In this document: one piece after another, positions 22,987-33,367 of the stretch | Layout of the letters: each line of letters starts with the position of its first letter | How positions within the stretch are numbered: position 1 is the first letter of the stretch | IMG/VR virus record: IMGVR_UViG_3300034120_002102 | Location: 1 to 34,557 of that record | Strand: one strand, 5' to 3' | Length of the DNA stretch: 34,557 nt | Source: a virus | Notes under the pieces: model-generated | What the model saw: only the letters and a program-made list of their open reading frames with translations | Told to the model about the DNA's origin: nothing | Database searches by the model: none | Translations under genes and position numbers: made by a program

Positions 22987-23012
22987 GGCAAAGATTTTAG
23001 GCATTTTTTTAT

Positions 23013-23040
23013 TTGACTTCTCAAGTTTGATGAGTAAAAT
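23013..23040 (+). promoter_or_regulatory. Early promoter
   Basis: TTGACT, 16 bp, TAAAAT; ACCGATATAA follows directly downstream of the -10 box instead of lying in the spacer. Confidence 0.7.
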
Positions 23041-23068
23041 ACCGATATAAAGGAAAGAGGAAAAACAA

Positions 23069-23275: not shown

Positions 23276-23277
23276 AA

Positions 23278-23595
23278 ATGATTCATTCCGAAGCGGTATC
23301 TATGGTTCGTGGCAAGCGTAATGCTAATCGTCGCAAGGTTGGAAACAATACCTACGCTGAAATTCTGAGCGATGGTAGCGTGGGGATTATGCTGCACAGT
23401 ACCTACGTTGTGAAGATTCATCCAGACAATACCTACACTCTGAATAGTGGTGGATGGCAGACTCTGACCACTAAGGATAGAATCAACCAGTATAGTCCGC
23501 GATATGTTTACCAGAAGAATTTTGAGTGGTTTGTAAAGATTGACGACAAGAGTTATCCTTTCATGGATGGTATGGTGGTGGGTTGTCCCACCTAA
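23278..23595 (+). CDS. Conserved-type phage early protein ('GGWQT' pattern)
   Basis: A 105-aa protein from the ATG at 23278. The core 'GDGSV/LHSTYVVKI...TLNSGGWQTLTTKDRINQY' is a pattern I recall from small proteins of unrelated phages, in which a Gly-Gly-Trp turn follows short strands. No function is known. The basic N-terminal part is VRGKRNANRRK. Its stop codon is inside the S1 element. Confidence 0.7.
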   Translation: MIHSEAVSMVRGKRNANRRKVGNNTYAEILSDGSVGIMLHSTYVVKIHPDNTYTLNSGGWQTLTTKDRINQYSPRYVYQKNFEWFVKIDDKSYPFMDGMVVGCPT

Positions 23596-23635
23596 CCCTA
23601 CGGGTTTGGATGTGGTGGATGTAGTCAGCGAAAAA
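23591..23635 (+). repeat. Dispersed 45-nt element S1
   Basis: CCTAACCC TAC GGGTTTGG hairpin followed by a conserved GTAGTCAGCGAAAAA tail. Compared with S2, the stem has a paired change (AATCC/GGATT to AACCC/GGGTT), which keeps the pairing. Confidence 0.65.
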
Positions 23636-23660
23636 ACTAAACTAAAGAAAGGGAACACGG

Positions 23661-23759
23661 ATGTTCGATATAAATTGGGTGAGTGTGAGTGTGGGATTTA
23701 TTGTTGGCATTTTTGGTTCTTATCTTGTTCATGATCTTGTTTTTCCAGTAAAGGAATGA
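23661..23759 (+). CDS. Tiny membrane protein
   Basis: A 32-aa protein with one transmembrane segment (WVSVSVGFIVGIFGSYLV). AAAGGGA ribosome site 6 nt upstream. Function unknown. Confidence 0.55.
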   Translation: MFDINWVSVSVGFIVGIFGSYLVHDLVFPVKE

Positions 23760-23760
23760 T

Positions 23761-23838
23761 ATGAATAATAAAGAGAAGATGATTTTTATTTTTATGTGCT
23801 TTATCACTGGTTGTATTGTAACCTATTTGATTAACTAA
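23761..23838 (+). CDS. Tiny membrane protein
   Basis: A 25-aa protein with a hydrophobic helix (MIFIFMCFITGCIVTYLI), AAGGA ribosome site, 1 nt after the previous stop. The pair may act together in the membrane, or may be spurious given their size. Confidence 0.5.
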   Translation: MNNKEKMIFIFMCFITGCIVTYLIN

Positions 23839-23847
23839 TAATTAGCC

Positions 23848-23889
23848 TGCCAAAATGACAGATGGGCCGCGAAAACTGCCAAATTGACA
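23848..23889. repeat. Early repeat array R4
   Basis: Arms TGCCAAAATGACA and TGCCAAATTGACA, 29-bp period, spacer GATGGGCCGCGAAAAC (identical to that of R6). Ends 25 bp before the -35 box. Confidence 0.9.
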
Positions 23890-23914
23890 GGAATTTTTTT
23901 TCTAAAGCGGCGGC

Positions 23915-23942
23915 TTGACAAGTGTCGATAATAGAGTATACT
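23915..23942 (+). promoter_or_regulatory. Early promoter with TCGATA spacer
   Basis: TTGACA, 16-bp spacer AGTGTCGATAATAGAG, TATACT. Confidence 0.85.
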
Positions 23943-23978
23943 GGTGGAAAAGGTTTTCAATAACGAAAGGGTTTGATA

Positions 23979-24389
23979 ATGAACGATATGGTTTATATTG
24001 GTATTGCTGCTGTTGCTGGTATTGCTGCTTTGCTGTTTATTCTCGCTTTGAATGTTTACAACGGCATTCATGGTAGTCTTAGCACTGCTAAGGTTGGTGA
24101 AGTATATAATTTTGACTATGAGCAGCCTTTTCATGGTGAGCGTCAAAGGATTCTTGCTAAGGTTATTGAGCCTGTTTATACGTTGAGCGATGAGACTATT
24201 AGAAAGTTGGATCGTACTAGCAGTTATCGTCGTCACGATTCAATCTTTAAGCGTACTCATCATCTGGTAACTTGCCAGACGTTTGATGGTAAGATTCGAC
24301 AGTTTTATGCTGAACGTGCTACTAATGTTCGTCGATTTCCTATGGGGGATGTATTGATGAAGACCGGCTTGGCCAGCCTCCTCTTTTGA
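23979..24389 (+). CDS. Membrane-anchored early protein
   Basis: A 136-aa protein from the ATG at 23979 (GAAAGG ribosome site). Residues ~5-27 form a transmembrane helix (VYIGIAAVAGIAALLFILAL). The rest is a soluble domain with 'VGEVYNFDYEQPFHGERQRILAKV', 'SSYRRHDSIFKRTHHLVTC' and 'RQFYAERATNVRRF'. The pattern is familiar from hypothetical phage proteins, but no function is known. The N-terminal helix places it at the inner membrane. Confidence 0.7.
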   Translation: MNDMVYIGIAAVAGIAALLFILALNVYNGIHGSLSTAKVGEVYNFDYEQPFHGERQRILAKVIEPVYTLSDETIRKLDRTSSYRRHDSIFKRTHHLVTCQTFDGKIRQFYAERATNVRRFPMGDVLMKTGLASLLF

Positions 24390-24398
24390 GGGGGTTTT
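24377..24398 (+). terminator. Terminator overlapping the end of the membrane-protein gene
   Basis: CCTCCTC, loop TTTT, GAGGGGG, then TTTT. The stop codon lies in the loop region. It comes before array R5, so the array is not needed as the terminator here. Confidence 0.65.
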
Positions 24399-24402
24399 GG
24401 CC

Positions 24403-24444
24403 TGCCAAATTGGCAGCCGGGCCGCGAAAACTGCCAAAATGGCA
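24403..24444. repeat. Early repeat array R5
   Basis: Arms TGCCAAATTGGCA and TGCCAAAATGGCA, 29-bp period, spacer GCCGGGCCGCGAAAAC. Ends 24 bp before the -35 box. Confidence 0.9.
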
Positions 24445-24468
24445 GTTATTTTTTTCGACAAATTTTTC

Positions 24469-24496
24469 TTGACAAGATGCCGATAATCCATATAAT
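24469..24496 (+). promoter_or_regulatory. Early promoter with CCGATA spacer
   Basis: TTGACA, 16-bp spacer AGATGCCGATAATCCA, TATAAT. Confidence 0.9.
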
Positions 24497-24548
24497 GAGG
24501 CTTACATAAGGGATGATCAACTAATCTCAAAGATAATGGAAAACGATA

Positions 24549-24998
24549 ATGTTTACGCTGAAGCACATGAATCGGGTTTTGGGGGAAATCAAGGGACTGA
24601 GCAGCAAAAGTGTGTTTTCTCTGCGAAAGAGCCGTTTGTCCTATAGTCTGTCTCGACTGAACAATCAGCATCGTGGTGCTATTGTGGAGAAGATGATTAG
24701 GGATAAGTTGATTATGCAAGGTCGGAGGGTCAAGTATATCGGGGGAACCAATCCTTTTGATATGCTGGTTGATGGTCAACGTGTTGAAGTCAAGTCTTCT
24801 CTGGCTCGTCAGTTGCCTAGTGGTCGGCATTTTTATCAGTTCCAGAATATCAAGACTAAGAATTTTGATAAGATTGTTTTGGTCTATATTACCCCCAATG
24901 GTGTGAAGACTAAGACTTTCACCAAAAAGACTATGATGAAGAAACTTCGCCGGAATAAGTATTATTCTAACGGAAAGACTCTTGCGGGTGCGGCCTAA
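24549..24998 (+). CDS. PD-(D/E)XK nuclease-like protein
   Basis: A 149-aa protein. 'GAIVEKMIRDKLIMQG' (E47) followed by 'GGTNPFDMLVDGQRVEVKSS' gives the D71...E80-V81-K82 active-site pattern of the restriction-endonuclease-like fold. A conserved 'YQFQNIKTKNFDKIVLVYI' strand follows. The N-terminal ~40 residues are basic (SLRKSRLSYSLSRLNNQ) and may bind DNA. Possible roles are host DNA degradation, recombination or Holliday-type cleavage; the sequence does not decide. The ribosome site is weak (GGAAAAC). Confidence 0.75.
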   Translation: MFTLKHMNRVLGEIKGLSSKSVFSLRKSRLSYSLSRLNNQHRGAIVEKMIRDKLIMQGRRVKYIGGTNPFDMLVDGQRVEVKSSLARQLPSGRHFYQFQNIKTKNFDKIVLVYITPNGVKTKTFTKKTMMKKLRRNKYYSNGKTLAGAA

Positions 24999-25009
24999 AT
25001 TTTGTGCTC

Positions 25010-25038
25010 TTGACAACCGATAAAAGATAGTGTAGACT
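25010..25038 (+). promoter_or_regulatory. Early promoter with CCGATA spacer, no repeat array
   Basis: TTGACA, 17-bp spacer beginning ACCGATAAAAG, TAGACT. It starts 11 nt after the nuclease stop codon with no repeat array. Confidence 0.7.
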
Positions 25039-25059
25039 AGACCAAAGAGGAGAAAAACA

Positions 25060-25275
25060 ATGACTCGTAATCATACAATTCGTGACGAGATTGCTAGTAT
25101 CATGATGGAGTATGCTACTCTGGTTTGTGCTGTGGCTGAGACTCCTAGTACCAATAAGGCTGTGCATAAGATCAAGTTTGATACGGTGTTGGAGTTGAAA
25201 GAGACTACTACAAGTTTGATTATGAAAAAGTTGAATGAGCAAAAGCATAGTGCCGTGTGTGGTAGTTCTAACTAA
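25060..25275 (+). CDS. Small helical protein
   Basis: A 71-aa, mostly helical protein with a strong GAGGAGAA ribosome site. Hydrophobic heptads (IRDEIASIMMEYATLVCAVAE; LELKETTTSLIMKKLNE) suggest a helical hairpin. Not recognised. Confidence 0.7.
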   Translation: MTRNHTIRDEIASIMMEYATLVCAVAETPSTNKAVHKIKFDTVLELKETTTSLIMKKLNEQKHSAVCGSSN

Positions 25276-25287
25276 AGGGTAAAAATA

Positions 25288-25329
25288 TGCCAAAGTGGCA
25301 GATGGGCCGCGAAAACTGCCAAAATGACA
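25288..25329. repeat. Early repeat array R6
   Basis: Arms TGCCAAAGTGGCA and TGCCAAAATGACA, 29-bp period, spacer GATGGGCCGCGAAAAC. Ends 25 bp before the -35 box. Confidence 0.9.
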
Positions 25330-25354
25330 GAAAAATTTTTGTGGATTTTTTTAG

Positions 25355-25382
25355 TTGACAGGCCGATACTACATAGTAGAAT
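25355..25382 (+). promoter_or_regulatory. Early promoter with CCGATA spacer (drives ncRNA A)
   Basis: TTGACA, 16-bp spacer GGCCGATACTACATAG, TAGAAT. The next 470 bp contain no convincing gene. Confidence 0.85.
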
Positions 25383-25389
25383 GATTACA

Positions 25390-25569
25390 GAACAAGTGAA
25401 AACTTGTTGGCTATGTCGGGCCGAGTAGCCGGTAAAAACGGTAGTTGATGTCCTAGGAAACGTCTTCTACAATCGGTCCTAATGATATAAACTTTCGTGG
25501 GTCCATGCTCAGGGACTAGGTTGGGATAAGCCATTATGATAAACCCCGCATGTCTCGGCAGAGATGGGG
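25390..25569 (+). ncRNA. Candidate structured non-coding RNA A
   Basis: About 180 nt after a complete promoter. Visible stems in order: AACAAGT-GAAA-ACTTGTT (perfect 7 bp, GNRA tetraloop, 25391-25408); GGCTA...TAGCC (25409-25430); GTAG-TT-GATGT...ACGTC-TT-CTAC (a double stem with a symmetric TT/TT internal loop); GTCC...GGGAC; and a final AACCCC...GGGGTT with an inner TCTC-GGCA-GAGA. The last stem could end the RNA, but its downstream arm runs into the -35 of the next promoter. No ribosome site or open frame on the plus strand. Not tRNA, tmRNA or RNase P as far as I can tell. Confidence 0.55.
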
Positions 25570-25597
25570 TTGACAACGGGCTTATACGTTGTATAAT
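25570..25597 (+). promoter_or_regulatory. Promoter for ncRNA B
   Basis: TTGACA, 16-bp spacer ACGGGCTTATACGTTG, TATAAT. The TTG is shared with the last stem of RNA A. No CCGATA. Confidence 0.8.
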
Positions 25598-25598
25598 A

Positions 25599-25770
25599 AT
25601 GCCAATCTATGGGGGATGGCATCCTCACCACGACCAATACAACCAGTAACCGCTTGAATAGCAAGGTGATGAAATACTGATCATATTTCTAGGGACCAAT
25701 GTCGTGGGCGGTTTCCACTAGTTTTTACCTGGCCCAAGGGTTAAAAATATCGGGTACTAGATTGGATTAT
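25599..25770 (+). ncRNA. Candidate structured non-coding RNA B
   Basis: Visible pairing: ATGCCA...TGGCAT at the 5' end (25599-25622); a long-range stem CCACGAC (25628-25634) with GTCGTGG (25701-25707); inside it CAGTA (25644-25648) with TACTG (25675-25679), enclosing CTTG-AATAG-CAAG (25653-25665). AACCGC/GCGGTT is an alternative to part of this fold. Nesting of several stems without an open frame supports an RNA product. Function unknown. Confidence 0.5.
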
Positions 25771-25771
25771 A

Positions 25772-25805
25772 GAATCGGGGCGTAAAAGATTCGCTGGTTT
25801 TTTCT
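25772..25805 (+). terminator. Possible terminator after ncRNA B
   Basis: GAATC...GATTC short stem, followed after GCTGG by TTTTTTCTT. The stem is only 5 bp, so this is tentative. Confidence 0.4.
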
Positions 25806-25807
25806 TA

Positions 25808-25835
25808 TTGACATGACGATAAAGAATGGTATAAT
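25808..25835 (+). promoter_or_regulatory. Early promoter with ACGATA spacer
   Basis: TTGACA, 16-bp spacer TGACGATAAAGAATGG, TATAAT; drives a five-gene unit. No repeat array upstream. Confidence 0.85.
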
Positions 25836-25853
25836 GGTGGAAAAGGAGAAAAA

Positions 25854-26078
25854 ATGACTGTATCTGAACTTATTGAGCAGTTGAAGAATTATCCGTCCGA
25901 TATGAGGGTATTGACTCTTGGGTATGAGGGTGGGTATAATGATACCGAACTCAAGACCGAAGAGATTGTGTTCAACTTCTCTAAAAATGATGCTTGGTAT
26001 TACGGGCCTCATGAATGTGTGAAGTATACCGATACTGATACTGGTACAAAGTGTTTGGTAGTTGTGAGGGGAAAATGA
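25854..26078 (+). CDS. Conserved-type phage protein ('ELIEQLKNYP')
   Basis: A 74-aa protein with an AAGGAGAA ribosome site. Its pattern 'VSELIEQLKNYPSDMRVLTLGYEGGYND' is one I recall in many phage hypothetical proteins, a helix followed by strands and a Gly-Tyr-Glu-Gly-Gly turn. Function unknown. Coupled to the next gene by an ATGA overlap. Confidence 0.75.
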   Translation: MTVSELIEQLKNYPSDMRVLTLGYEGGYNDTELKTEEIVFNFSKNDAWYYGPHECVKYTDTDTGTKCLVVVRGK

Positions 26079-26200
26079 TCTATCTTAATCTTAATGAGAT
26101 TGAGCGATTGGCCGAAATCGTATCCGAACTGGTTAAGTTGGGTATGAGTGTTACTGCTGAACTCAAATATGATAGGTGGCAGATAGAGGTATACAAGTAA
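26075..26200 (+). CDS. Small hypothetical protein
   Basis: A 41-aa protein (MIYLNLNEIERLAEIVSEL...), helix then strand. ATGA overlap with the previous gene and TAATG overlap with the next. Not recognised. Confidence 0.65.
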   Translation: MIYLNLNEIERLAEIVSELVKLGMSVTAELKYDRWQIEVYK

Positions 26201-26517
26201 TGGAATGGAATAACTCTCATAAGAATCCACCAACTGAAGGCCAGAAGATTTATTACTTTGGGCCGCATATTGGTATCGGGATTGGACACTATTCTTATCA
26301 AGAGGACAGGGGATTCTTTCCATATCATTACGATGAAAATGGCTTGAAAGTTAATGAAGAAAAAAAGATAGACCTTTGCCCCCATATTTTCACTAACGAA
26401 AAATTTGGAGTTGTTGATGCTTGTGATGCTCCATTCTGGCTTCCTTACGACGAGGAACGAGCAAAGAGTTGGTGTCCGATTATTCCAGAAGAATATACTA
26501 AGGGGTTGTATGACTGA
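26200..26517 (+). CDS. DUF551-like protein
   Basis: A 105-aa protein from the ATG at 26200. 'W....KNPPTEGQKIYYFGPHIGIGIGHYSYQ' and 'FGVVDACDAPFWLPYD' follow the pattern of DUF551-type phage proteins (P-x-E-G-Q-x-V at the start, a Trp-x-Pro near the end). Function of the family is unknown. Assignment is from pattern memory. Confidence 0.65.
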   Translation: MEWNNSHKNPPTEGQKIYYFGPHIGIGIGHYSYQEDRGFFPYHYDENGLKVNEEKKIDLCPHIFTNEKFGVVDACDAPFWLPYDEERAKSWCPIIPEEYTKGLYD

Positions 26518-26683
26518 CGATAGAGACAAGGCTATGGTTTATCTGATTAATTTCTTTAAATCTCGTATGATGACGATGAGTAAACCTAATGTAGATAAGG
26601 CTAAAGAGTTGGTTAGTACTCATGAGATTGCGGTTTCTGAACTTATAGATAAGTATGTGAAATTAGTTTATGAAAACTCTTAG
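26510..26683 (+). CDS. Small helical protein
   Basis: A 57-aa, helical, amphipathic protein. Starts inside the end of the previous gene (8-nt overlap) with an AAGGGG ribosome site, and itself overlaps the next gene by 14 nt. Not recognised. Confidence 0.65.
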   Translation: MTDDRDKAMVYLINFFKSRMMTMSKPNVDKAKELVSTHEIAVSELIDKYVKLVYENS

Positions 26684-26795
26684 TGATATTTGTCCATGTG
26701 GAAAATGTGATATACTAGCATACAAGTATGATCATAACTATGGCATCTTATGGTATTTTTGTGCTGAATGCCATTGGTGGTATGTAGGTAACTAA
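26670..26795 (+). CDS. Zinc-ribbon miniprotein
   Basis: A 41-aa protein with CPCGKC (C8, C10, C13) and CAEC (C31, C34), the two knuckles of a zinc ribbon, with aromatic residues in the second half (WYFC, HWWYV). Last gene of its unit; its stop is followed after 1 nt by array R7. Confidence 0.7.
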   Translation: MKTLSDICPCGKCDILAYKYDHNYGILWYFCAECHWWYVGN

Positions 26796-26796
26796 C

Positions 26797-26838
26797 TGCC
26801 AAAATGGCGGCCGGGCCGCACCATCTGCCAAAATGGCA
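26797..26838. repeat. Early repeat array R7
   Basis: Arms TGCCAAAATGGCG and TGCCAAAATGGCA, 29-bp period, spacer GCCGGGCCGCACCATC, which begins like R5 and ends like R9/R10. Ends 25 bp before the -35 box. Confidence 0.9.
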
Positions 26839-26863
26839 TACCAAAATTTTTTAAATCTTTCTC

Positions 26864-26891
26864 TTGACCATTCCGATACTAATAGTATACT
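26864..26891 (+). promoter_or_regulatory. Early promoter with CCGATA spacer
   Basis: TTGACC, 16-bp spacer ATTCCGATACTAATAG, TATACT. Confidence 0.8.
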
Positions 26892-26901
26892 TAAGGGACA
26901 A

Positions 26902-26994
26902 GTGGATGCGGGCCGTTGGCAGAATGATATCAAAGAAGCCGCGGTTAAATGCAAAGCCGAGTATGGCATAACCCGATCCTCTTGTCTTTCCTAA
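26902..26994 (+). CDS. Possible 30-aa peptide (GTG start)
   Basis: AAGGGA lies 4 nt before a GTG that opens a 30-codon frame (V/M DAGRWQNDIKEAAVKCKAEYG...). The helical, charged composition looks protein-like, but this is the only support. The stop codon is part of the S2 element. Confidence 0.35.
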   Translation: MDAGRWQNDIKEAAVKCKAEYGITRSSCLS

Positions 26995-27034
26995 TCCTAC
27001 GGATTTGCCGGTCGTGCTGATAGTCAGCGAGAAA
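26990..27034 (+). repeat. Dispersed 45-nt element S2
   Basis: CCTAATCC TAC GGATTTGC hairpin, then GCTGA-TAG-TCAGC hairpin and GCGAGAAA. It lies 9 bp upstream of a promoter -35 box. Confidence 0.65.
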
Positions 27035-27043
27035 TTAAAGGTA

Positions 27044-27072
27044 TTGACAACGATTGGTCGATAAGGTATACT
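27044..27072 (+). promoter_or_regulatory. Promoter with TCGATA spacer, probably giving leaderless mRNA
   Basis: TTGACA, 17-bp spacer with GGTCGATAAGG, TATACT. The downstream ATG begins 6 nt after the -10 box, at the expected transcription start. Confidence 0.75.
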
Positions 27073-27078
27073 AGAGAC

Positions 27079-27504
27079 ATGAAAACAAAACAACCACACG
27101 GCGAAGTTCGCTTTCATTTGAGTACAGGCCAGCATTATATGCACTGGCAATTGAAAATTAAGCAAGGTGGCAAGACTGTGGAAGTTTGCTATTTTGATCC
27201 GTCTGAATATCAGTTAGAGATGCGGGGTTGTAAGTTGTGGAATAGGCCAAACAAGGCTAAACAGGTATTTGAGGCTGGTGTGCACGATGTTAGTGGATGG
27301 GTTCGTTGTGAAGAAGTGATGCTACGAAAAACTTTTTTTCCGAAATTGCCTGTTGACAATCTTGAGAAGTTATATTATAATCCGTTGAGAGATCCGCATT
27401 GGCGACGAGAAAGCGATAGCAACGAATTCATTTGGGATGGTAGTGAATACGCTACTTTACTGACTAACGGCAAACAAGTTTACATTTTGGAAGAAAGGGT
27501 TTGA
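27079..27504 (+). CDS. Hypothetical protein, apparently leaderless mRNA
   Basis: A 141-aa protein. 'LSTGQHYMHWQLKIKQGGKTVEVCYFDPSEYQLEMRGCKL' and 'FEAGVHDVSGWVRCEEV' suggest a beta-rich domain. The pattern is familiar from phage early genes but unnamed. No ribosome site precedes the ATG, which sits at the predicted transcription start. The next gene follows by 2 nt. Confidence 0.75.
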   Translation: MKTKQPHGEVRFHLSTGQHYMHWQLKIKQGGKTVEVCYFDPSEYQLEMRGCKLWNRPNKAKQVFEAGVHDVSGWVRCEEVMLRKTFFPKLPVDNLEKLYYNPLRDPHWRRESDSNEFIWDGSEYATLLTNGKQVYILEERV

Positions 27505-27506
27505 AT

Positions 27507-27890
27507 ATGATCAAGTTGGAACTGAGTGTTCGTGAGGCTATGCATCTGGCTACCAGTTGGGCGTACAATAATGATGTCGAACTGTATCATAAGATTGTTA
27601 ACTCTTTTGAACTGGCTCTGGGTGTAAACCAGAATCGTACCGTTACCATCACGAACGGAATGAATCTGGACAATCGCATCTCTTGTATCAAGGCTATTCG
27701 ACTCCACACCGGATGGGGCTTGAAGGAAAGCAAGGATTGGACGGATGCTCTGGTGGGCGGTTGGAAGTACGACAAGTTTGTTCCGGCATCTGCTGGTGCG
27801 AAGCAGAGTATTACTCTCAAGACTCCCGAAGCGGCTGAGAATCTGCTGCGTGATCTTGCTGGTTTGGGTTGTGAGGGTTATCTCTCATAA
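27507..27890 (+). CDS. Protein with ribosomal L7/L12 C-terminal-like domain
   Basis: A 127-aa protein. Residues 58-78 (ISCIKAIRLHTGWGLKESKDW) and ~100-127 (SITLKTPEAAENLLRDLAGLGCEGYLS) follow the L7/L12 C-terminal domain, where bacterial proteins read KIxVIKxVRxxTGLGLKEAKDLVD and later KEEAExxKKxLExAGAxVELK. That domain recruits translation factors to the ribosomal stalk. The N-terminal ~50 residues are not the L12 dimerisation domain. Phages are known to carry ribosomal-protein homologues including bL12, so a role in host ribosome take-over is plausible but inferred. The ATG has an AAAGGG ribosome site. Confidence 0.7.
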   Translation: MIKLELSVREAMHLATSWAYNNDVELYHKIVNSFELALGVNQNRTVTITNGMNLDNRISCIKAIRLHTGWGLKESKDWTDALVGGWKYDKFVPASAGAKQSITLKTPEAAENLLRDLAGLGCEGYLS

Positions 27891-27891
27891 C

Positions 27892-27933
27892 TGCCAAAAC
27901 GGCAGGCGCCGCGGCCAGCCTGCCAAAATGGCA
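27892..27933. repeat. Early repeat array R8
   Basis: Arms TGCCAAAACGGCA and TGCCAAAATGGCA, 29-bp period, spacer GGCGCCGCGGCCAGCC (inverted type). Starts 1 nt after a stop codon; ends 26 bp before the -35 box. Confidence 0.9.
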
Positions 27934-27959
27934 GAGCAAAAAATATTCACGAGACGCTG

Positions 27960-27987
27960 TTGACTAGCCGATACTCTATGGTATGAT
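27960..27987 (+). promoter_or_regulatory. Early promoter with CCGATA spacer
   Basis: TTGACT, 16-bp spacer AGCCGATACTCTATGG, TATGAT. It is followed only ~60 bp later by a second promoter, with no clear gene between. Confidence 0.8.
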
Positions 27988-28048
27988 GATAGCATCACAC
28001 GACAAGACGCCAAACGATCCCAACGCAAAGAAAAGTTCGGATTGGCTC

Positions 28049-28076
28049 TTGACAAGTGATGAGTGGTTTGTATAAT
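28049..28076 (+). promoter_or_regulatory. Second promoter of the 82-aa gene
   Basis: TTGACA, 16 bp, TATAAT, without CCGATA. Tandem with the promoter at 27960, so this gene may have one regulated and one constitutive start. Confidence 0.85.
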
Positions 28077-28117
28077 CTGTTTACTTGGTTGATAACACTA
28101 ACTTGGAAGGGTTTACT

Positions 28118-28366
28118 ATGAAGAAGTTTTCTTTTGTTGTTGATGTTGTTGCTGATGATCTTGATCGTGATGGTGTGGTAGAGTCGCTTCGTTCGTGCCT
28201 GAGTGATAGTCTGCCCGGTGACGTTCACGCTAACGTCAAGGCTGGCGAAGTCAAGAGTTTTAGCGAGCAGGGTTACAAGGTCTGGCGTGCTAGGGTCACT
28301 GGCGTGACTGCCGAGCAGGCTGGCGATGCTCACACCGGCAAGGTCGAGGTCGAGGCTGTTGCCTGA
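28118..28366 (+). CDS. Small hypothetical protein
   Basis: An 82-aa protein (starts MKKFSFVVDVVADDLDRDGVVESL), GGAAGGG ribosome site. A strand-helix-strand pattern with 'GYKVWRARVTGVTAEQAGD' near the end could be a ferredoxin-like fold. Higher G+C than its neighbours. Not recognised. Confidence 0.7.
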   Translation: MKKFSFVVDVVADDLDRDGVVESLRSCLSDSLPGDVHANVKAGEVKSFSEQGYKVWRARVTGVTAEQAGDAHTGKVEVEAVA

Positions 28367-28368
28367 AC

Positions 28369-28396
28369 TTGACAAACTGGACTATGCCAGTATAAA
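28369..28396 (+). promoter_or_regulatory. Promoter for ncRNA C
   Basis: TTGACA, 16-bp spacer AACTGGACTATGCCAG, TATAAA; followed by ~200 bp without a gene. Confidence 0.8.
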
Positions 28397-28403
28397 TAGA
28401 TTT

Positions 28404-28590
28404 TAGGCATAGTGCGGCGGGGTAAAACCCGCGTAATGATTGCTGGTATAAACCAGCCTAGTAGAGTCTAACCAACTAATAACCAGCGTGGTTGCTGGGA
28501 AGGGGTCTGCTACTAGTAATATAACGATGGTAAAGTGGCTCCACCATCAAACCGCATAGCCTCTATGGGACGCCATAGGGGCTTGCGGCA
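28404..28590 (+). ncRNA. Candidate structured non-coding RNA C, upstream of the tRNAs
   Basis: A series of clear stems: GCGGG-GTAAAA-CCCGC; GCTGGT-ATAA-ACCAGC; an outer CTAGTAG/CTACTAG enclosing CCAGC-GTGGTT-GCTGG; GATGG...CCATC; and a strong compound hairpin CCGC/GCGG around AGCC and CTATGG-GACG-CCATAG. No open frame with a ribosome site. It ends where the promoter of the tRNA-Arg gene begins. Large structured RNAs near phage tRNA clusters are known (for example GOLLD), but this one is much shorter and not recognisably related. Confidence 0.6.
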
Positions 28591-28611
28591 TTGAGTGGGT
28601 TCTGTTATAAT
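28583..28611 (+). promoter_or_regulatory. Possible promoter of tRNA-Arg/His/Asp
   Basis: TTGCGG, 17 bp, TATAAT, ending 8 bp before the tRNA-Arg. The -35 box is weak and overlaps the last hairpin of RNA C, so the tRNAs may alternatively be processed from the RNA C transcript. Confidence 0.55.
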
Positions 28612-28619
28612 ATCAACAC

Positions 28620-28691
28620 GGCCCTATAGTTAAATGGATATAACAACTGCCTTCTAAGCAGTTATTGGAGGTTCGATTCCTCCTGGGGCTA
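28620..28691 (+). tRNA. tRNA-Arg (anticodon TCT)
   Basis: 72-nt cloverleaf: acceptor GGCCCTA/TGGGGCT, D stem GTTA/TAAC, anticodon arm ACTGC-CTTCTAA-GCAGT, T arm GGAGG-TTCGATT-CCTCC. CCA not encoded. Reads AGA. Confidence 0.9.
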
Positions 28692-28693
28692 CT

Positions 28694-28766
28694 GTGGCTA
28701 TAACTCAATTGGTAGAGTAACAGGTTGTGATCCTGTTTGTTGTGGGTTCGAATCCCACTAGCCACC
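28694..28766 (+). tRNA. tRNA-His (anticodon GTG)
   Basis: Acceptor GTGGCTA/TAGCCAC, anticodon loop TTGTGAT in a CAGG/CCTG arm, T loop TTCGAAT, discriminator C as expected for tRNA-His. CCA not fully encoded. Two bases after tRNA-Arg. Confidence 0.9.
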
Positions 28767-28772
28767 CATTTA

Positions 28773-28846
28773 GGGAGCGTAGATCAATTGGTTAGATCGT
28801 TAGCCTGTCACGCTAAAGGTTGCGGGTTCAAGTCCCGTCGCTCTCG
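28773..28846 (+). tRNA. tRNA-Asp (anticodon GTC)
   Basis: Acceptor GGGAGCG/CGCTCTC, anticodon loop CTGTCAC in a TTAGC/GCTAA arm, T arm GCGGG-TTCAAGT-CCCGT, discriminator G. Array R9 begins 4 bp later. Confidence 0.9.
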
Positions 28847-28850
28847 CTTC

Positions 28851-28892
28851 TGCCAAAATGGCAGGCTCCGCGGCCCATCTGCCAAAATGGCA
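28851..28892. repeat. Early repeat array R9
   Basis: Two TGCCAAAATGGCA arms, 29-bp period, spacer GGCTCCGCGGCCCATC, whose end is the exact reverse complement of the start of the R4/R6 spacer (11 bp). Ends 26 bp before the -35 box. Confidence 0.9.
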
Positions 28893-28918
28893 TACGAAAT
28901 TCTTTCAAGTTTTTTCGT

Positions 28919-28946
28919 TTGACAAGCCGATACTCTAATGTAGAAT
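28919..28946 (+). promoter_or_regulatory. Early promoter with CCGATA spacer
   Basis: TTGACA, 16-bp spacer AGCCGATACTCTAATG, TAGAAT. Confidence 0.9.
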
Positions 28947-28967
28947 ACTGAGACACGGAGAACAAAG

Positions 28968-29678
28968 ATGAAAACTGCAAATGGTAATGATAAGTTGGGC
29001 AAGGAAAACTGCATAGTTGTTAGTCGCCCGGTTGGCGATACTTGCCCGCCCGATTGTGATTTTCTCGGCAATGGTTGCTATGCTGAGGACTTGGAAAATA
29101 TCTATCCGGGTGTTCGTCCCGCTGGTATGCAAAATCTTATCACGGAAAAAAATCGTATTCGTTCTATGCTTTTAGATGCTGTCAAGAAAAATAAAGATGT
29201 TCGCTGGCACGAGCGTGGCGACTTTTTCAAGGATGGCAAACTTGATAATGAGTACGTTGATAATGTATTGTGGGCTTGTGAGAGTATTCTTGCTAGTGGT
29301 GGTAGTCTGCCGACCATGTGGGCCTATACCCATATTTATGATACTCGACTGTCTCTTGAACTTGGCAAGTATATAAATATGTATGCTAGTATCCACGATG
29401 GTGAAGATATGAAACAAGCCAAAGCCGCTGGTTTCAAGCATTTCGCATGGTGTGATAGTGATACTAAGATTGCCCCCAAGCGTCCGCGTAGTAAGGCTAA
29501 GGCTGACGCATGGCGTAAAGCGTTGCCTAAACTGGTTGTGTTAGAGGGCGAAAAGTTTATTACTTGTCCGGAAATTCGTCGTGGTCGTGGTGTTGTGACT
29601 TGCACAAAAACCAAAAATAGCGTACATTGTGATTTGTGTCCGCGTGGCTTGGCTAATGTTCTTTTTCCTTCTCACTGA
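28968..29678 (+). CDS. Cys-motif phage protein, distantly Gp37/Gp68-like
   Basis: A 236-aa protein with a GGAGAA ribosome site. The N-terminal signature 'TCPPDCDFLGNGCYAE' (C26, C30, C37) and a C-terminal cluster 'CTKTKNSVHCDLCPRG' suggest one or two metal sites. In between, 'VRWHERGDFFKDG', 'MWAYTHIYD' and 'FKHFAWCDSD' give a barrel-like succession reminiscent of the Gp37/Gp68 (DUF5131-type) phage proteins, which have a related CxxxC...CYA signature. Function of those families is not established. The family link is tentative; the gene looks intact. Confidence 0.6.
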   Translation: MKTANGNDKLGKENCIVVSRPVGDTCPPDCDFLGNGCYAEDLENIYPGVRPAGMQNLITEKNRIRSMLLDAVKKNKDVRWHERGDFFKDGKLDNEYVDNVLWACESILASGGSLPTMWAYTHIYDTRLSLELGKYINMYASIHDGEDMKQAKAAGFKHFAWCDSDTKIAPKRPRSKAKADAWRKALPKLVVLEGEKFITCPEIRRGRGVVTCTKTKNSVHCDLCPRGLANVLFPSH

Positions 29679-29688
29679 GACTATTACA

Positions 29689-29922
29689 ATGAGTAAGTAT
29701 TATATTAAGTGTGGTAGTTTAGAGTTGATTTATTCTGCTCCTAATTCTAAGCCGGTTGAGGCTGCTCAAATTGCATTGTGGGAAACTAACCAGTTTGATG
29801 TATTAGATGAGTACTTTTATATTGATGAGCGTGGGTATAGAGATTATATTACTGCTGATAAAGAAACTAAGGTAATTAGTTTAAGTAAAGTGGCTAAGTT
29901 GGCGGGGTGGAAACTGGAGTAG
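29689..29922 (+). CDS. Hypothetical protein
   Basis: A 77-aa protein (starts MSKYYIKCGSLELIYSAP). 'EAAQIALWETNQFDVLDEYFYIDERGYRD' and 'VISLSKVAKLAGWKLE' look like a small alpha/beta domain. Weak ribosome site; 10 nt after the previous gene and probably co-transcribed. Its stop is 1 nt before array R10. Confidence 0.7.
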   Translation: MSKYYIKCGSLELIYSAPNSKPVEAAQIALWETNQFDVLDEYFYIDERGYRDYITADKETKVISLSKVAKLAGWKLE

Positions 29923-29923
29923 C

Positions 29924-29965
29924 TGCCAAAACGGCAGCCTCCGCGGCCCATCTGCCAAAAAGGCA
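29924..29965. repeat. Early repeat array R10
   Basis: Arms TGCCAAAACGGCA and TGCCAAAAAGGCA, 29-bp period, spacer GCCTCCGCGGCCCATC. Downstream the promoter is degenerate: CCGATA (29990-29995) is present only 24 bp after the array and no -35 box precedes it, as if ~10 bp had been deleted. Confidence 0.85.
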
Positions 29966-30002
29966 GACTAAAGTTCTAGCCATCGAAAGCCGATAAAAAA
30001 GT

Positions 30003-30404
30003 ATGAAACGACGGTTGACAAACGGAGAGCGTATGATACAGTGGGTAGGAGTAGCGATTGCTTTGTTAGGATTTGTGTGGAATAGTGTAAAAGATTATCA
30101 GAAGGGTGAGATACACCTACCACAAATACCAAAACAAAAACAATTGACAAAAAGTGTTTATCCGGTACAATACTGTTTAATGGCTTATGATCCTAACATA
30201 GATAAGGTTTTCTATTTACACGATAATGGTATATGGTATGATTACGCTCCACAACAACGACGATATGAGGCCACGCCGCAAGTACGGCAAGTTCAAGATC
30301 AAGGCCAAACATTCATGGGAAATGGCTACGGGTCACAGAGAAGATCGCCGGGATACGTCTATGGACAACAGGCCCAAGCGTCAACGAACACGGCACGATA
30401 TTGA
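30003..30404 (+). CDS. Membrane-anchored hypothetical protein
   Basis: A 133-aa protein if started at 30003; an ATG at 30033 preceded by GGAGAG gives 123 aa and may be the true start. N-terminal transmembrane helix (WVGVAIALLGFVW), then 'DYQKGEIHLPQIPK', a compact segment 'YCLMAYDPNIDKVFYLHDNGIWYDYAP' and a Gln/Gly-rich tail (~45 residues) of low complexity. The tail overlaps another open frame (30265-30435). Confidence 0.65.
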   Translation: MKRRLTNGERMIQWVGVAIALLGFVWNSVKDYQKGEIHLPQIPKQKQLTKSVYPVQYCLMAYDPNIDKVFYLHDNGIWYDYAPQQRRYEATPQVRQVQDQGQTFMGNGYGSQRRSPGYVYGQQAQASTNTARY

Positions 30405-30435
30405 CAAAAGTTGGCGAGACGAGTATGATATGTAG
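30265..30435 (+). CDS. Possible overlapping basic protein (+1 frame)
   Basis: A 56-aa very basic frame (MRPRRKYGKFKIKAKHSWEM...RPKRQRTRHD) overlapping the low-complexity end of the membrane protein. Its composition looks protein-like (KYGKFKIKAKHSWEMATGHRE), but no ribosome site is seen. Either frame could be the real one in the overlap, or both. Confidence 0.4.
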   Translation: MRPRRKYGKFKIKAKHSWEMATGHREDRRDTSMDNRPKRQRTRHDIDKSWRDEYDM

Positions 30436-30439
30436 TCTT

Positions 30440-30511
30440 GCCGATGTAGCACAACGGTAGTGCAATTGATTTGTAATCAATAGGTTGAAGGTTCAAATCC
30501 TTTCGTCGGCT
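30440..30511 (+). tRNA. tRNA-Thr (anticodon TGT)
   Basis: Acceptor GCCGATG/CGTCGGC, D stem GCAC/GTGC, anticodon arm ATTGA-TTTGTAA-TCAAT, T loop TTCAAAT. CCA not encoded. Confidence 0.9.
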
Positions 30512-30512
30512 C

Positions 30513-30583
30513 TCCGGGATGGTGAAACGGTATCACAGAGGACTTTGGATCCTTTATTCTACGTTCAAATCGTAGTCCCGGAA
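30513..30583 (+). tRNA. tRNA-Gln (anticodon TTG)
   Basis: Acceptor TCCGGGA/TCCCGGA, anticodon arm GAGGA-CTTTGGA-TCCTT, T arm CTACG-TTCAAAT-CGTAG. One base after tRNA-Thr. Confidence 0.9.
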
Positions 30584-30601
30584 TAGTTGGTTACATAATG
30601 A

Positions 30602-30673
30602 ACACGGGTAGCATAATGGTAATGCCCCAAACTGTTAATTTGTCAGATGTAGGTTCGAATCCTACCCCGTGTG
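30602..30673 (+). tRNA. tRNA-Asn (anticodon GTT)
   Basis: Acceptor ACACGGG/CCCGTGT, D stem GCAT/ATGC, anticodon loop CTGTTAA, T arm GTAGG-TTCGAAT-CCTAC. The outermost pair of the anticodon stem is C-T, a mismatch. Confidence 0.85.
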
Positions 30674-30677
30674 TTTA

Positions 30678-30764
30678 GGAATCTTGGCCGAGCGGTTTAA
30701 GGCAGCTTTTTACTAAAGAGCCGAGGGTTAAAATCCTCCGGGGGTTCGAATCCCTCAGATTCCG
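30678..30764 (+). tRNA. tRNA-Ser (long variable arm; anticodon reads ACT)
   Basis: 87 nt with acceptor GGAATCT/AGATTCC, D arm GGCCGAGCGGTTTAAGGC typical of tRNA-Ser, anticodon arm GCTTT-TTACTAA-AGAGC, long variable arm (GAGG...CCTC), discriminator G. The anticodon would be ACT where GCT is normal for AGY serine codons. Confidence 0.75.
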
Positions 30765-30769
30765 TCTTG

Positions 30770-30815
30770 CCTAATCCTACGGATTCGGTTAGGGTGGTTG
30801 TAGTCAGCGAAAATC
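30770..30815 (+). repeat. Dispersed 45-nt element S3
   Basis: CCTAATCC TAC GGATTCGG hairpin and GTAGTCAGCGAAAATC tail, 5 bp after tRNA-Ser and 14 bp upstream of the next -35 box. Confidence 0.65.
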
Positions 30816-30829
30816 TAAAGTTTTGGGAG

Positions 30830-30857
30830 TTGACAAGCCGATAACACAGTGTATAAT
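30830..30857 (+). promoter_or_regulatory. Early promoter with CCGATA spacer (tRNA-Ile/Glu)
   Basis: TTGACA, 16-bp spacer AGCCGATAACACAGTG, TATAAT; 8 bp before tRNA-Ile. Confidence 0.9.
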
Positions 30858-30865
30858 CAGTTCAC

Positions 30866-30939
30866 GGGGCGTTGCAGCCGGTAGTTGCACACACTCTTAT
30901 AAGGTGTTCAAAAGGTAGGTTCGACTCCTACACGCCCTA
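30866..30939 (+). tRNA. tRNA-Ile (anticodon TAT)
   Basis: Acceptor GGGGCGT/ACGCCCT, D stem GCA/TGC, anticodon arm ACACT-CTTATAA-GGTGT, T arm GTAGG-TTCGACT-CCTAC. TAT reads AUA directly. Bacteria usually read AUA with a CAT-anticodon tRNA carrying lysidine. Confidence 0.85.
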
Positions 30940-30970
30940 TTCGGAGGCTGACGTTTGAGTTATGGTGAGT

Positions 30971-31043
30971 GGCCCTATAGTATAATGGTTTAGTATACCG
31001 GGCTTTCATCCCGGAGATCGGAGTTCGATCCTCCGTAGGGCTA
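30971..31043 (+). tRNA. tRNA-Glu (anticodon TTC)
   Basis: Acceptor GGCCCTA/TAGGGCT, D stem GTAT/GTAT..., anticodon arm CCGGG-CTTTCAT-CCCGG, T arm CGGAG-TTCGATC-CTCCG. It ends directly at the next -35 box. Confidence 0.9.
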
Positions 31044-31071
31044 TTGACAGTGGCGTTCGATAGGATATAAT
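31044..31071 (+). promoter_or_regulatory. Early promoter with TCGATA spacer
   Basis: TTGACA, 16-bp spacer GTGGCGTTCGATAGGA, TATAAT, abutting tRNA-Glu. Confidence 0.85.
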
Positions 31072-31088
31072 ACCAAAAGAGAGAAGAA

Positions 31089-31256
31089 ATGAAAAAGTTG
31101 CGTATTTATGATATTGTGATGGAGAGTGGTGAGAAGCATCTGAATGATATTATGGTAGAAATGAATGAAGGATTTGATTGGACTGATGTTTTCTTTACTC
31201 TTGAGCAGCAACTAACTTTCCCGGTTGATAGTTATAGTTATGAGGAAATAAACTAA
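31089..31256 (+). CDS. Small acidic protein
   Basis: A 55-aa protein (starts MKKLRIYDIVMESGEK), AGAGAAG ribosome site. C-terminal half is acidic and aromatic (FDWTDVFFTLEQQLTFP). Lies between two tRNA genes, so its mRNA end is probably set by tRNA-Lys processing. Not recognised. Confidence 0.65.
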   Translation: MKKLRIYDIVMESGEKHLNDIMVEMNEGFDWTDVFFTLEQQLTFPVDSYSYEEIN

Positions 31257-31264
31257 TCGTTCAT

Positions 31265-31336
31265 GGGCCTGAAGCATTAGTAGTGATGCAATAGACTTTT
31301 AATCTATTGAACGGGGTGCATGTCCCTGCGGGCCTA
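31265..31336 (+). tRNA. tRNA-Lys (anticodon TTT), degenerate elbow
   Basis: Acceptor GGGCCTG/CGGGCCT, D stem GCAT/ATGC, anticodon arm ATAGA-CTTTTAA-TCTAT, T stem CGGGG/CCCTG. The D loop (TAGTAGTG) lacks the GG pair, the T loop is TGCATGT in place of TTCxAxT, and position 8 is A. The acceptor and anticodon arms are intact. Confidence 0.7.
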
Positions 31337-31337
31337 C

Positions 31338-31365
31338 TTGACAGTTGACCGGTTTGGTGTATAAT
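31338..31365 (+). promoter_or_regulatory. Early promoter
   Basis: TTGACA, 16-bp spacer GTTGACCGGTTTGGTG, TATAAT; no CCGATA. Starts 1 nt after tRNA-Lys. Confidence 0.85.
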
Positions 31366-31384
31366 GGGAATAAGGAGAAAAGTT

Positions 31385-31525
31385 ATGACTTATGAATATG
31401 ATTATGAAAGTATTCTAGAAGATACCGACGATCTTTATGACGATGACGAATATAGTATGGAAGATGTAGAGAGTGATTGGGATAACTATTATCATAATAT
31501 AACTCAAGAACTGGTTGACGACTGA
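31385..31525 (+). CDS. Very acidic, Lys/Arg-free protein
   Basis: A 46-aa protein (starts MTYEYDYESILEDTDDLYDDD) with AAGGAGA ribosome site. About 40% Asp/Glu, many Tyr, and no Lys or Arg. Same composition as the 87-aa protein at 22246-22509. Possible DNA or nucleic-acid mimic; inference from composition. Confidence 0.7.
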   Translation: MTYEYDYESILEDTDDLYDDDEYSMEDVESDWDNYYHNITQELVDD

Positions 31526-31536
31526 TCTTTTCTCCG

Positions 31537-31624
31537 ACGGATGCAACTTGGTGGGACAAGTATCTATTATAAGGAAAACAATCCTTTCTTCTTTTCTCTG
31601 TACGTTCGAATCGTACCATCCGTT
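31537..31624 (+). other. tRNA-like element without usable anticodon
   Basis: Acceptor-like ACGGATG/CATCCGT, D arm ACTT-GGTGGGAC-AAGT, and a perfect T arm GTACG-TTCGAAT-CGTAC. The 38 nt between D and T arms do not form a normal anticodon arm (AAGGA/TCCTT with a 6-nt loop lacking U33 is the best). Either a decayed tRNA or a processing signal; the next ATG is 5 nt after its end. Confidence 0.6.
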
Positions 31625-31629
31625 TTGCT

Positions 31630-32124
31630 ATGAATATAATGAATAATCCTATTGAAGATATCAGAAAAACAGACACCGGCATTATTCAAGGTGCTAGTCA
31701 TACTTGCCACGTATTGAATCATAAGATTCGTACAAAGATTATTATCAAAGCAGTATGCGATCTGAGAAAAATTTCTGATGAATTTGATAGTATTGCTTGT
31801 TGTGGAAGTAGTGGCCTTATGGTTGTTCCACAAGTAGCGGAACTATTGAATAAAAATATTGTTCTAGTAAGAAAGGAACAAGAAAAACGTTATTCAAACT
31901 TTGCCATAGAGGGAATAGCACCTTTTAGGTATATTATCCTTGACGACCTTATATGTAGTGGCGATACTGTTAGGCATATTAGACGCACAATACAAGATGA
32001 ACACCCCAGGAGTAAATGTATAGGATTATATTGTTATCTTCCTAAAGAATGTGCATATAGTGATGATATTAGTGGGTCAAAAATATGCCAGCGTGATATG
32101 GGAATACCCCTGCTGAATATTTAG
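31630..32124 (+). CDS. Phosphoribosyltransferase-like protein
   Basis: A 164-aa protein. Residues 102-113 (IILDDLICSGDT) are the PRPP-binding loop of type I phosphoribosyltransferases. 'DSIACCGSSGLMVVPQVAELL' (~53-73) matches their 'G..S.G...A..LA' first loop, and 'NIVLVRKE' the following strand. The substrate cannot be told; it may act on nucleobases or, like other phage versions, on other small molecules. No ribosome site precedes the ATG, and a second ATG lies at codon 4. Directly behind the tRNA-like element, so mRNA processing there would leave an almost leaderless message. Confidence 0.75.
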   Translation: MNIMNNPIEDIRKTDTGIIQGASHTCHVLNHKIRTKIIIKAVCDLRKISDEFDSIACCGSSGLMVVPQVAELLNKNIVLVRKEQEKRYSNFAIEGIAPFRYIILDDLICSGDTVRHIRRTIQDEHPRSKCIGLYCYLPKECAYSDDISGSKICQRDMGIPLLNI

Positions 32125-32125
32125 C

Positions 32126-32167
32126 TGCCAAAACGGCAGCTTCCCCGGCTCGCCTGCCAAAATGGCA
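32126..32167. repeat. Early repeat array R11
   Basis: Arms TGCCAAAACGGCA and TGCCAAAATGGCA, 29-bp period, spacer GCTTCCCCGGCTCGCC (most divergent). Starts 1 nt after a stop codon; ends 24 bp before the -35 box. Confidence 0.9.
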
Positions 32168-32191
32168 GAAAAATTTTCTCAATTCAGTCGC

Positions 32192-32219
32192 TTGACATAC
32201 CGATACTGTATTGTAGAAT
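32192..32219 (+). promoter_or_regulatory. Early promoter with CCGATA spacer
   Basis: TTGACA, 16-bp spacer TACCGATACTGTATTG, TAGAAT. Confidence 0.9.
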
Positions 32220-32263
32220 GAGTGGAGTAGAACGAAGAAACGATAACACGAAAGGGTTAGAAA

Positions 32264-33208
32264 ATGCCTGCTGCTGTTGAGAAGATGATGTTTGTTGGTG
32301 AGACGCCTTGGCATGGCCTGGGTAATCAGTTGGATGAGGCTCCGTCGATTGGCGAGGCTATTGATGCCGCTGGTCTTGACTGGGAAGTTGGTCTGAAGGA
32401 TTTGCAGACCGTTGATGGTGTTCCGGTTTCGCATCGTGCGACATATCGTAAGACCGATGGTAGCATCCTGGGAGTGGTCGGGCCGCGTTATACGCCCCTC
32501 CAGAACCGTGATGCTTTTGATTGGTTCCAGCCGTTCCTCGACGCTGGTGAGTGCAATCTGCATACTGCTGGTTCACTCCACAGTGGTCAAAAGGTTTGGG
32601 TGCTTGCTCAACTTAACCGCGACAATAGTGAAATTGTCAAGGGTGATGAGGTTTGCAAGTTTATCCTGCTGAGTAATAGTCATGATGGTTCGACTGCTAT
32701 TCGTGTTGGATATACTCCGATTAGAGTGGTTTGTGTGAATACGTTGTCTTATGCTCACAAGCATACTAATAGTCAACTTATTCGCATCCGTCATACTCGC
32801 TCCAGCCAGAAGAATCTGGAACAGGTTCGGGATATCATGGATAATATCAATGCTGGTTTTGAGGCTACTGCGGAGCAGTATCGGTTTCTTGCCGGTAAGA
32901 CTTTTAACCAGAAAGATATCGAGAAGTATGTTAAGATCGTTCTGAATATCAAGGGTGCTGACGAGGATATTAAGACTCGTACCCGTAATATCATGGACGA
33001 TATTCTTACTAGGATCGAAGGCCCGAAACAGGCCGCTACCAATGTTCGCGGAACTTGGTGGGCAGCCTATAACGGGTTTAATGAGTACCTGAATTATGGT
33101 AAGGGTCGCACGACCGACAATAGGCTCGATAGCCTCTGGTTCGGTCAAAATGCGAACGAGAATAATAAGGCATTGGAAACTGCCCTGGAGTTTGCCAACG
33201 CTCTCTGA
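32264..33208 (+). CDS. DUF932 phage/plasmid-like protein
   Basis: A 314-aa protein, normal for the DUF932 (TIGR03299) family. Family features seen: 'ETPWHGLGNQLDEAPSIGEAIDAAGLDWEV' at the N-terminus, 'YTPLQNRDAFDWFQPFLDAGE', 'KVWVLAQLN', 'FILLSNSHDGSTAIRVGYTPIRVVCVNTL', and 'GTWWAAYNGFNEYLNY' near the end. The family is common in phages and plasmids; its function is unknown. GAAAGGG ribosome site. G+C is higher than in neighbouring genes and the gene has its own promoter, repeat array and strong terminator, making a self-contained unit. Confidence 0.9.
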   Translation: MPAAVEKMMFVGETPWHGLGNQLDEAPSIGEAIDAAGLDWEVGLKDLQTVDGVPVSHRATYRKTDGSILGVVGPRYTPLQNRDAFDWFQPFLDAGECNLHTAGSLHSGQKVWVLAQLNRDNSEIVKGDEVCKFILLSNSHDGSTAIRVGYTPIRVVCVNTLSYAHKHTNSQLIRIRHTRSSQKNLEQVRDIMDNINAGFEATAEQYRFLAGKTFNQKDIEKYVKIVLNIKGADEDIKTRTRNIMDDILTRIEGPKQAATNVRGTWWAAYNGFNEYLNYGKGRTTDNRLDSLWFGQNANENNKALETALEFANAL

Positions 33209-33237
33209 TCCTTTCGTCGGTGGAATGCAGGCAAGAG

Positions 33238-33275
33238 GCCGCTGCTGGGCAACTGGCAGCGGCTTTTTGCTTTTT
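33238..33275 (+). terminator. Strong rho-independent terminator after the DUF932 gene
   Basis: GCCGCTGC and GCAGCGGC form an 8-bp GC-rich stem with a 10-nt loop, followed by TTTTTGCTTTTT. Confidence 0.95.
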
Positions 33276-33285
33276 ATAGACAGGC

Positions 33286-33327
33286 TGCCAAAATGGCAGG
33301 CGGGCCGCGAAATCTGCCAAAATGACA
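33286..33327. repeat. Early repeat array R12
   Basis: Arms TGCCAAAATGGCA and TGCCAAAATGACA, 29-bp period, spacer GGCGGGCCGCGAAATC. It follows a complete terminator, so it is not required for termination here. Confidence 0.9.
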
Positions 33328-33367
33328 GGCAACTTTTAATTTCTTAATATCCTTTGTCTATTGTGCC

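Follow-up and report, generated by a model that had tools for sequence, protein, structure and literature searches.

Large structured non-coding RNAs such as GOLLD and ROOL are found near the tRNAs of phages. Pistol self-cleaving ribozymes have likewise been found near phage genes, where their job is not established (PMC4604425, PMC6154101), and the HDV-like theta ribozymes of gut phages lie beside phage tRNA genes and were proposed to process tRNA transcripts (PMC10879173). In addition, the RiboJ insulator is a synthetic part built on a self-cleaving ribozyme (PMC6206723). Here we describe RNA C, an element in front of a tRNA cluster in a 34.6-kb viral record, the whole of which is referred to as the window.

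RNA C resembles GOLLD and ROOL as a structured RNA near phage tRNAs; however, its domain of about 155 nt has another architecture and no Rfam match. The original prediction had singled out GOLLD-like RNAs for comparison; neither GOLLD nor any other large phage RNA in Rfam matched, which leaves a GOLLD identity unsupported, and pistol was the only family recovered for the element. Like the theta ribozymes (PMC10879173), a self-cleaving ribozyme here adjoins phage tRNA genes, but theta ribozymes have an HDV-like fold and a proposed role at the tRNA 3' trailer, whereas the one described here is of the pistol class and lies 5' of the tRNAs, its cut separated from them by a structured RNA. A theta identity was rejected on that 5' position and because no HDV-like Rfam family matched. 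The likeness to RiboJ holds in the proposed sense that a 5' ribozyme would standardise the 5' end of the downstream RNA; this ribozyme is of another class and natural, and what follows it is a conserved RNA, not an mRNA. With the pistol class itself (RF02679) the element shares P1, the loop-to-strand pseudoknot, P2, P3, the G^U step and the phage setting (PMC4604425, PMC6154101). It departs from the class in that P2 consists of three A-U pairs only, a promoter −10 can be read from the conserved UAUAAA, and the ribozyme is linked with another conserved RNA domain and with a tRNA operon. In a search of open-licence papers, neither a structured RNA linked to a pistol nor a pistol ahead of phage tRNAs was found to have been described. 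One pistol fixed across a phage lineage before a conserved RNA domain and a tRNA gene offers a concrete case for finding what pistol ribozymes do for phages.

A pistol ribozyme and a second conserved domain

The 82-aa gene upstream, which has no Pfam or PHROGs match, is followed at once by RNA C and then by tRNA-Arg, tRNA-His and tRNA-Asp (table 1). A further tRNA at 31265-31336 of the window was detected by Rfam and missed by ARAGORN. The closest relatives, found via a GP88-like protein at 28968-29678 that has no isolate phage match, are contigs from uncultured phages and reach 243 kb.

On the plus strand, 28369-28611 folds with a minimum free energy of −95.8 kcal/mol, compared with a shuffle mean of −69.6 (sd 5.2; z = −5.02, 0 of 200 shuffles as good). 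Every stem named in the original prediction, which claimed at least five in succession, is present. The minus strand also folds strongly (z = −5.7), so the strand cannot be told from folding alone; the plus strand was assigned because of the Rfam pistol match, the co-oriented tRNAs and the pseudoknot covariation on that strand. RNA C consists of two parts, the pistol ribozyme (28376-28438) and a domain spanning roughly 28434-28593. Structure extends to about 28588-28593, and the remainder, 28594-28611, is mainly promoter. The structure of RNA C is conserved among related large, uncultured phages. The proposal of a structured RNA beside the phage tRNA cluster was borne out by covariation, but it had overlooked that the first 63 nt belong to a known class.

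The pistol match lies well above the RF02679 gathering cut-off of 34.5 bits. The conserved active-site residues of the class (UUA[A/G]GC, GNGCG, G^U) are present as UUAGGC at 28403-28408, GUGCG at 28412-28416 and G28433-U28434, with G28414 corresponding to G40 of the class, and cleavage is predicted at G28433^U28434. In relatives, the loop-strand pseudoknot covaries, with compensated changes at columns 9-64, 10-63 and 11-62, and P1 alternates between ACTGG/CCAGT and ACTCG/CGAGT. By every feature of its sequence that could be tested, the first part of RNA C is a pistol ribozyme.

Table 1. Features of the RNA C locus in the window
Feature	Position (strand)	Description
Promoter of small upstream gene	28049..28076 (+)	TTGACA-16-TATAAT, 12/12 consensus match
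Small upstream gene (82 aa)	28118..28366 (+)	ORF list; conserved in relatives with and without RNA C (blastn)
Promoter-like pair overlapping ribozyme	28369..28396 (+)	TTGACA-16-TATAAA; −10 is the ribozyme's conserved UAUAAA
Pistol self-cleaving ribozyme	28376..28438 (+)	Rfam RF02679, 51.0 bits, full length 1-68/68
Pistol P1	28376-28380/28387-28391 (+)	
Pistol pseudoknot	28381-28386/28408-28413 (+)	P1 loop with strand
Pistol P2	28400-28402/28435-28437 (+)	Only three A-U pairs
Pistol P3	28417-28421/28428-28432 (+)	
P4 hairpin	28442..28457 (+)	GCTGG/CCAGC; alignment and single-sequence folds, judged by eye, not scored separately
P5	28458-28464/28510-28516 (+)	Both-side changes at 4/7 pairs
Pseudoknot 1	28471-28474/28489-28492 (+)	ACCA with UGGU in P7 loop; 97.1% of cells paired
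P7	28483-28487/28494-28498 (+)	Both-side changes at 4/5 pairs
Pseudoknot 2	28502-28507/28537-28542 (+)	GGGGUC with GGCUCC in P8 loop; 96.1% of cells paired
P8 hairpin	28526..28548 (+)	GATGGT/ACCATC; 97.4% of cells paired, compensatory change at 3/6 pairs
P9 compound hairpin	28552..28588 (+)	Conserved GGGACGCC tip; 94.2% of cells paired, 5/16 pairs compensated
Second promoter-like pair	28583-28588, 28606-28611 (+)	TTGCGG, spacer 17, TATAAT; between RNA C and tRNA
tRNA-Arg(tct)	28620-28692 (+)	ARAGORN and Rfam RF00005
tRNA-His	28694-28767 (+)	ARAGORN and Rfam RF00005
tRNA-Asp	28773-28847 (+)	ARAGORN and Rfam RF00005

The downstream domain comprises stems P4, P5, P7, P8 and P9 and two pseudoknots, with P5 enclosing P7 and the 5' strands of both pseudoknots. 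We aligned 26 distinct sequences with MAFFT on sequence only and scored P5, P7, P8, P9 and both pseudoknots; the pairs that close the structure as a whole were assessed only by eye. In the scored structure, 92.7% of cells pair, compared with 31-50% when the partners were slid by 1-3 columns, and both-side changes occur at 24 of 44 pairs. None of 500 shuffles equalled the covariation, a control that overstates significance for related sequences, whereas the slide control and the number of distinct compensations do not rest on the shuffles. All six pairs of pseudoknot 2 show both-side changes in this sequence-only alignment; its 5' strand follows GAA, and its variants include GUUAUCG/CGAUAAC (L023), GUUAUCC/GGAUAAC (L263) and GCGGCU/AGUCGC (L166). 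In pseudoknot 1, two of the four pairs changed in a compensatory manner, A-U to G-C in the L154/L278 group (GCCA/UGGC) and C-G to U-A in L323 (AUCA/UGAU). By eye, P4 also stays complementary despite sequence change (GCCGG/CCGGC, GTGGG/CCCAC, GTTGC/GCAAC). The compound hairpin described in the original prediction is real and corresponds to P9, in which CCGCA/TGCGG is followed by AGCC/GGCT and then by CTATGG-GACG-CCATAG. An Rfam search of 28434-28593 gave no match besides the pistol up to E = 5, bar an insignificant 9.6-bit tmRNA hit. With no Rfam 15 family to its name, the domain is a candidate for a new structured-RNA family.

Distribution and natural variants

Pistols above the RF02679 cut-off occurred in 16 of 50 related records, one per record. 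A first pattern for pistols was too loose; a second was specific, with a complementary P1 in 158 of 162 matches, and about a hundred further phage pistols were found by pattern scan, nearly all with complementary P1. A covariance model of the domain found full copies only in this lineage, directly 3' of a pistol, and the ribozyme was altered only in L155, L149 and L301. In L155 the domain is kept and pistol P1 carries a 4-nt deletion. The other two, which belong to different subgroups, carry a two-hairpin insert (GGGCTAACGCCC plus a second hairpin) in the pistol linker after AUAAA (L149:5413-5500, L301:2605-2690). No domain copy was found in 50,697 isolate phage records, where the sole pistol-like match was a partial one in Cellulosimicrobium phage DS1. 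In bacterial genomes, the P9 pattern occurred in two contigs (L324, L325) that the covariance model did not support, and these were set aside as chance.

The ribozyme and domain precede tRNA-Arg(UCU) in nearly all carriers. The tRNA association is strong within the lineage, but it is not absolute: in L166, L168, L197 and L212 no tRNA stands behind the pistol and domain, and in L166 a small ORF comes next. L050 lacks the domain, and only a 6-nt leader lies between its pistol and tRNA-Arg. L110 and L222 have domain copies with the last hairpin replaced, and P9 alone is retained in L146-L148 (as GGGAAACC) and in L163-L164. In eight further relatives (L124, L128, L130, L138, L140-L142, L144), tRNA-Arg is accompanied by an unrelated short hairpin instead of RNA C. 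L312 contains two pistols 219 nt apart (L312:2782-3063); the second precedes the domain and tRNA-Arg, and the first is immediately followed by a small ORF that has a ribosome-binding-site-like sequence of its own. Because of variants such as L050 without the domain, L166 without the tRNA, L155 with a damaged ribozyme and L149/L301 with an insertion, a role in maturing phage RNA is directly testable.

Neither of two broader rules held for pistols in general. Stretches following pistols were on average no support for a rule that pistols precede structured RNAs (mean z −1.44, compared with −1.06 for random stretches), and a position before tRNAs holds for the RNA C lineage and is rare elsewhere. 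Separately, in several unrelated phages (L282, L207, L260; L254, L258, L245; L026; L032) a pistol is followed by another strongly folding RNA that ends in an intrinsic-terminator-like hairpin and T run; these are possible further pistol-matured RNAs.

Transcription, proposed maturation and alternative readings

Judging from the sequence, transcripts from the promoter of the small upstream gene can read through into the ribozyme, and no plus-strand terminator-like site is listed between that promoter and the tRNAs. The strong promoter that had been placed upstream of the element overlaps the ribozyme instead (TTGACA 28369-28374, TATAAA 28391-28396), and its transcripts would start near 28403-28406, inside the ribozyme. 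It was absent from the standard promoter scan because that scan requires a final T in the −10, which TATAAA lacks. A −35 with at least 5 of 6 matches lies 15-17 nt before the ribozyme UAUAAA in 20 of 30 pistols of the lineage versus 3 of 84 other pistols, counted over rows that are not independent. The second promoter-like pair, whose −35 is within the 3' arm of P9, stands ahead of the tRNA here and recurs between P9 and tRNA in over half of the relatives; the TATAAT between domain and tRNA is absent in L005, L052, L070, L113, L126, L127, L137, L268, L312 and L323. A perfect TTGACA was commoner in carriers without the internal promoter (8/12 versus 3/14, p = 0.045, among related rows).

We lean towards a model in which the pistol cuts a structured RNA off read-through mRNA and RNase P, acting at the tRNA, makes the 3' side. 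In vivo, read-in transcripts from the upstream gene would form the ribozyme and cut themselves at the predicted step, severing the mRNA and giving the downstream RNA a fixed 5'-OH end. Because nucleases dependent on a 5'-monophosphate do not act on such an end, it would favour the stability of the RNA. Transcripts from the overlapping promoter, if it is used, would start after P1 and provide nearly the same downstream RNA uncut; because they would begin inside the ribozyme, only read-through transcripts could self-cleave. RNase P at tRNA-Arg position 28620 would separate the domain from the tRNA and release it as a structured non-coding RNA of roughly 160-190 nt, which, we infer, most likely either acts in trans as a stable RNA or shields the tRNA transcript as its leader. 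In the roughly ten carriers without the TATAAT the domain runs straight into the tRNA, which suggests that the two share a transcript split by RNase P. In L050, freeing the tRNA transcript by cleavage would be a sufficient role for the pistol. The full-length pistol match, the covariation of the domain with both its pseudoknots, the position of full domain copies directly behind a pistol and the enrichment of the overlapping −35 in this lineage also favour the release model. Against it, most carriers, the window included, have a promoter-like sequence between domain and tRNA from which the tRNA could be made without RNA C, and RNA C appears dispensable for the tRNA, since several relatives carry tRNA-Arg behind just a short leader hairpin. 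In addition, the element of the L166 group precedes an ORF, not a tRNA, P2 in this window has only its three A-U pairs, and nothing in the window, such as a terminator, directly marks the 3' end of a discrete RNA.

The pistol and domain might together be only a leader, a 5' processing and stabilising module of the tRNA-Arg transcript discarded after RNase P. Although we judge this unlikely as a full account, it carries some weight: the position before tRNA-Arg is nearly constant, relatives without RNA C have a different stable hairpin at the same place, and in L050 the pistol alone stands at the tRNA. However, four carriers have no tRNA behind the element, the covarying tertiary structure is more than a throw-away leader needs, and an extra promoter bypasses the element in most carriers. 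It seems rather improbable that the domain is a cis-acting, riboswitch-like sensor governing its pistol or the tRNA operon. On this reading, ribozyme folding would be promoted or prevented when the pseudoknots bind a ligand or a tRNA, for instance by pairing of AAUG (28435-28438, the 3' strand of P2) with CAUU (28589-28592); most members could form this pairing, but L005 and L137 could not. In favour of a sensor, a pair of pseudoknots whose joining residues are invariant (here AUAA and GAA) is typical of RNAs that bind ligands, the P2 3' strand pairs with the P9 3' end in the single-sequence minimum-free-energy fold of several members, and L149 and L301 have hairpins inserted in the pistol linker; yet the domain and pistol stand before different downstream genes, and no Rfam riboswitch matched up to E = 5, although a new class is conceivable. 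By analogy, a natural allosteric pistol whose domain senses a ligand or tRNA and regulates phage tRNA supply would work as glmS does, but with another ribozyme and target; we consider this quite improbable.

We give little credence to the pistol as a pure insulator against read-through mRNA from the upstream gene, which it would destroy or trim, with the domain a separate neighbour. Such a role would fit the restriction of cleavage to read-through transcripts that the overlapping promoter implies, the first pistol of L312 directly before an ORF, and the lack of unusually structured RNA after most pistols elsewhere; but every full copy has pistol and domain together as one block, the three altered ribozymes excepted, and L155 retains the domain after damage to its pistol. 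That the element is absent from several relatives with the same flanking genes would also suit a chance fold or a functionless mobile-element remnant, an explanation made hardly credible by covariation that no shuffle reached and by compensation at every pair of pseudoknot 2.

Two other repeated elements were observed in the window. About 13 copies of a double palindrome (CTGCCAAAATGGCAG, a GC-rich spacer and CTGCCAAAATGGCAG again) lie between genes at 20838-33331, approximately one per kb; they precede promoters of the form TTGACA..CCGATA..TATAAT and look like a repeated operator or terminator unit. A 57-nt element with the hairpin AATCC-TAC-GGATT and a conserved TAGTCAGCGA occurs in five copies (at 23585, 26984, 30764, 33469 and 33665), one of them directly 3' of tRNA-Ser, and is possibly another structured RNA.
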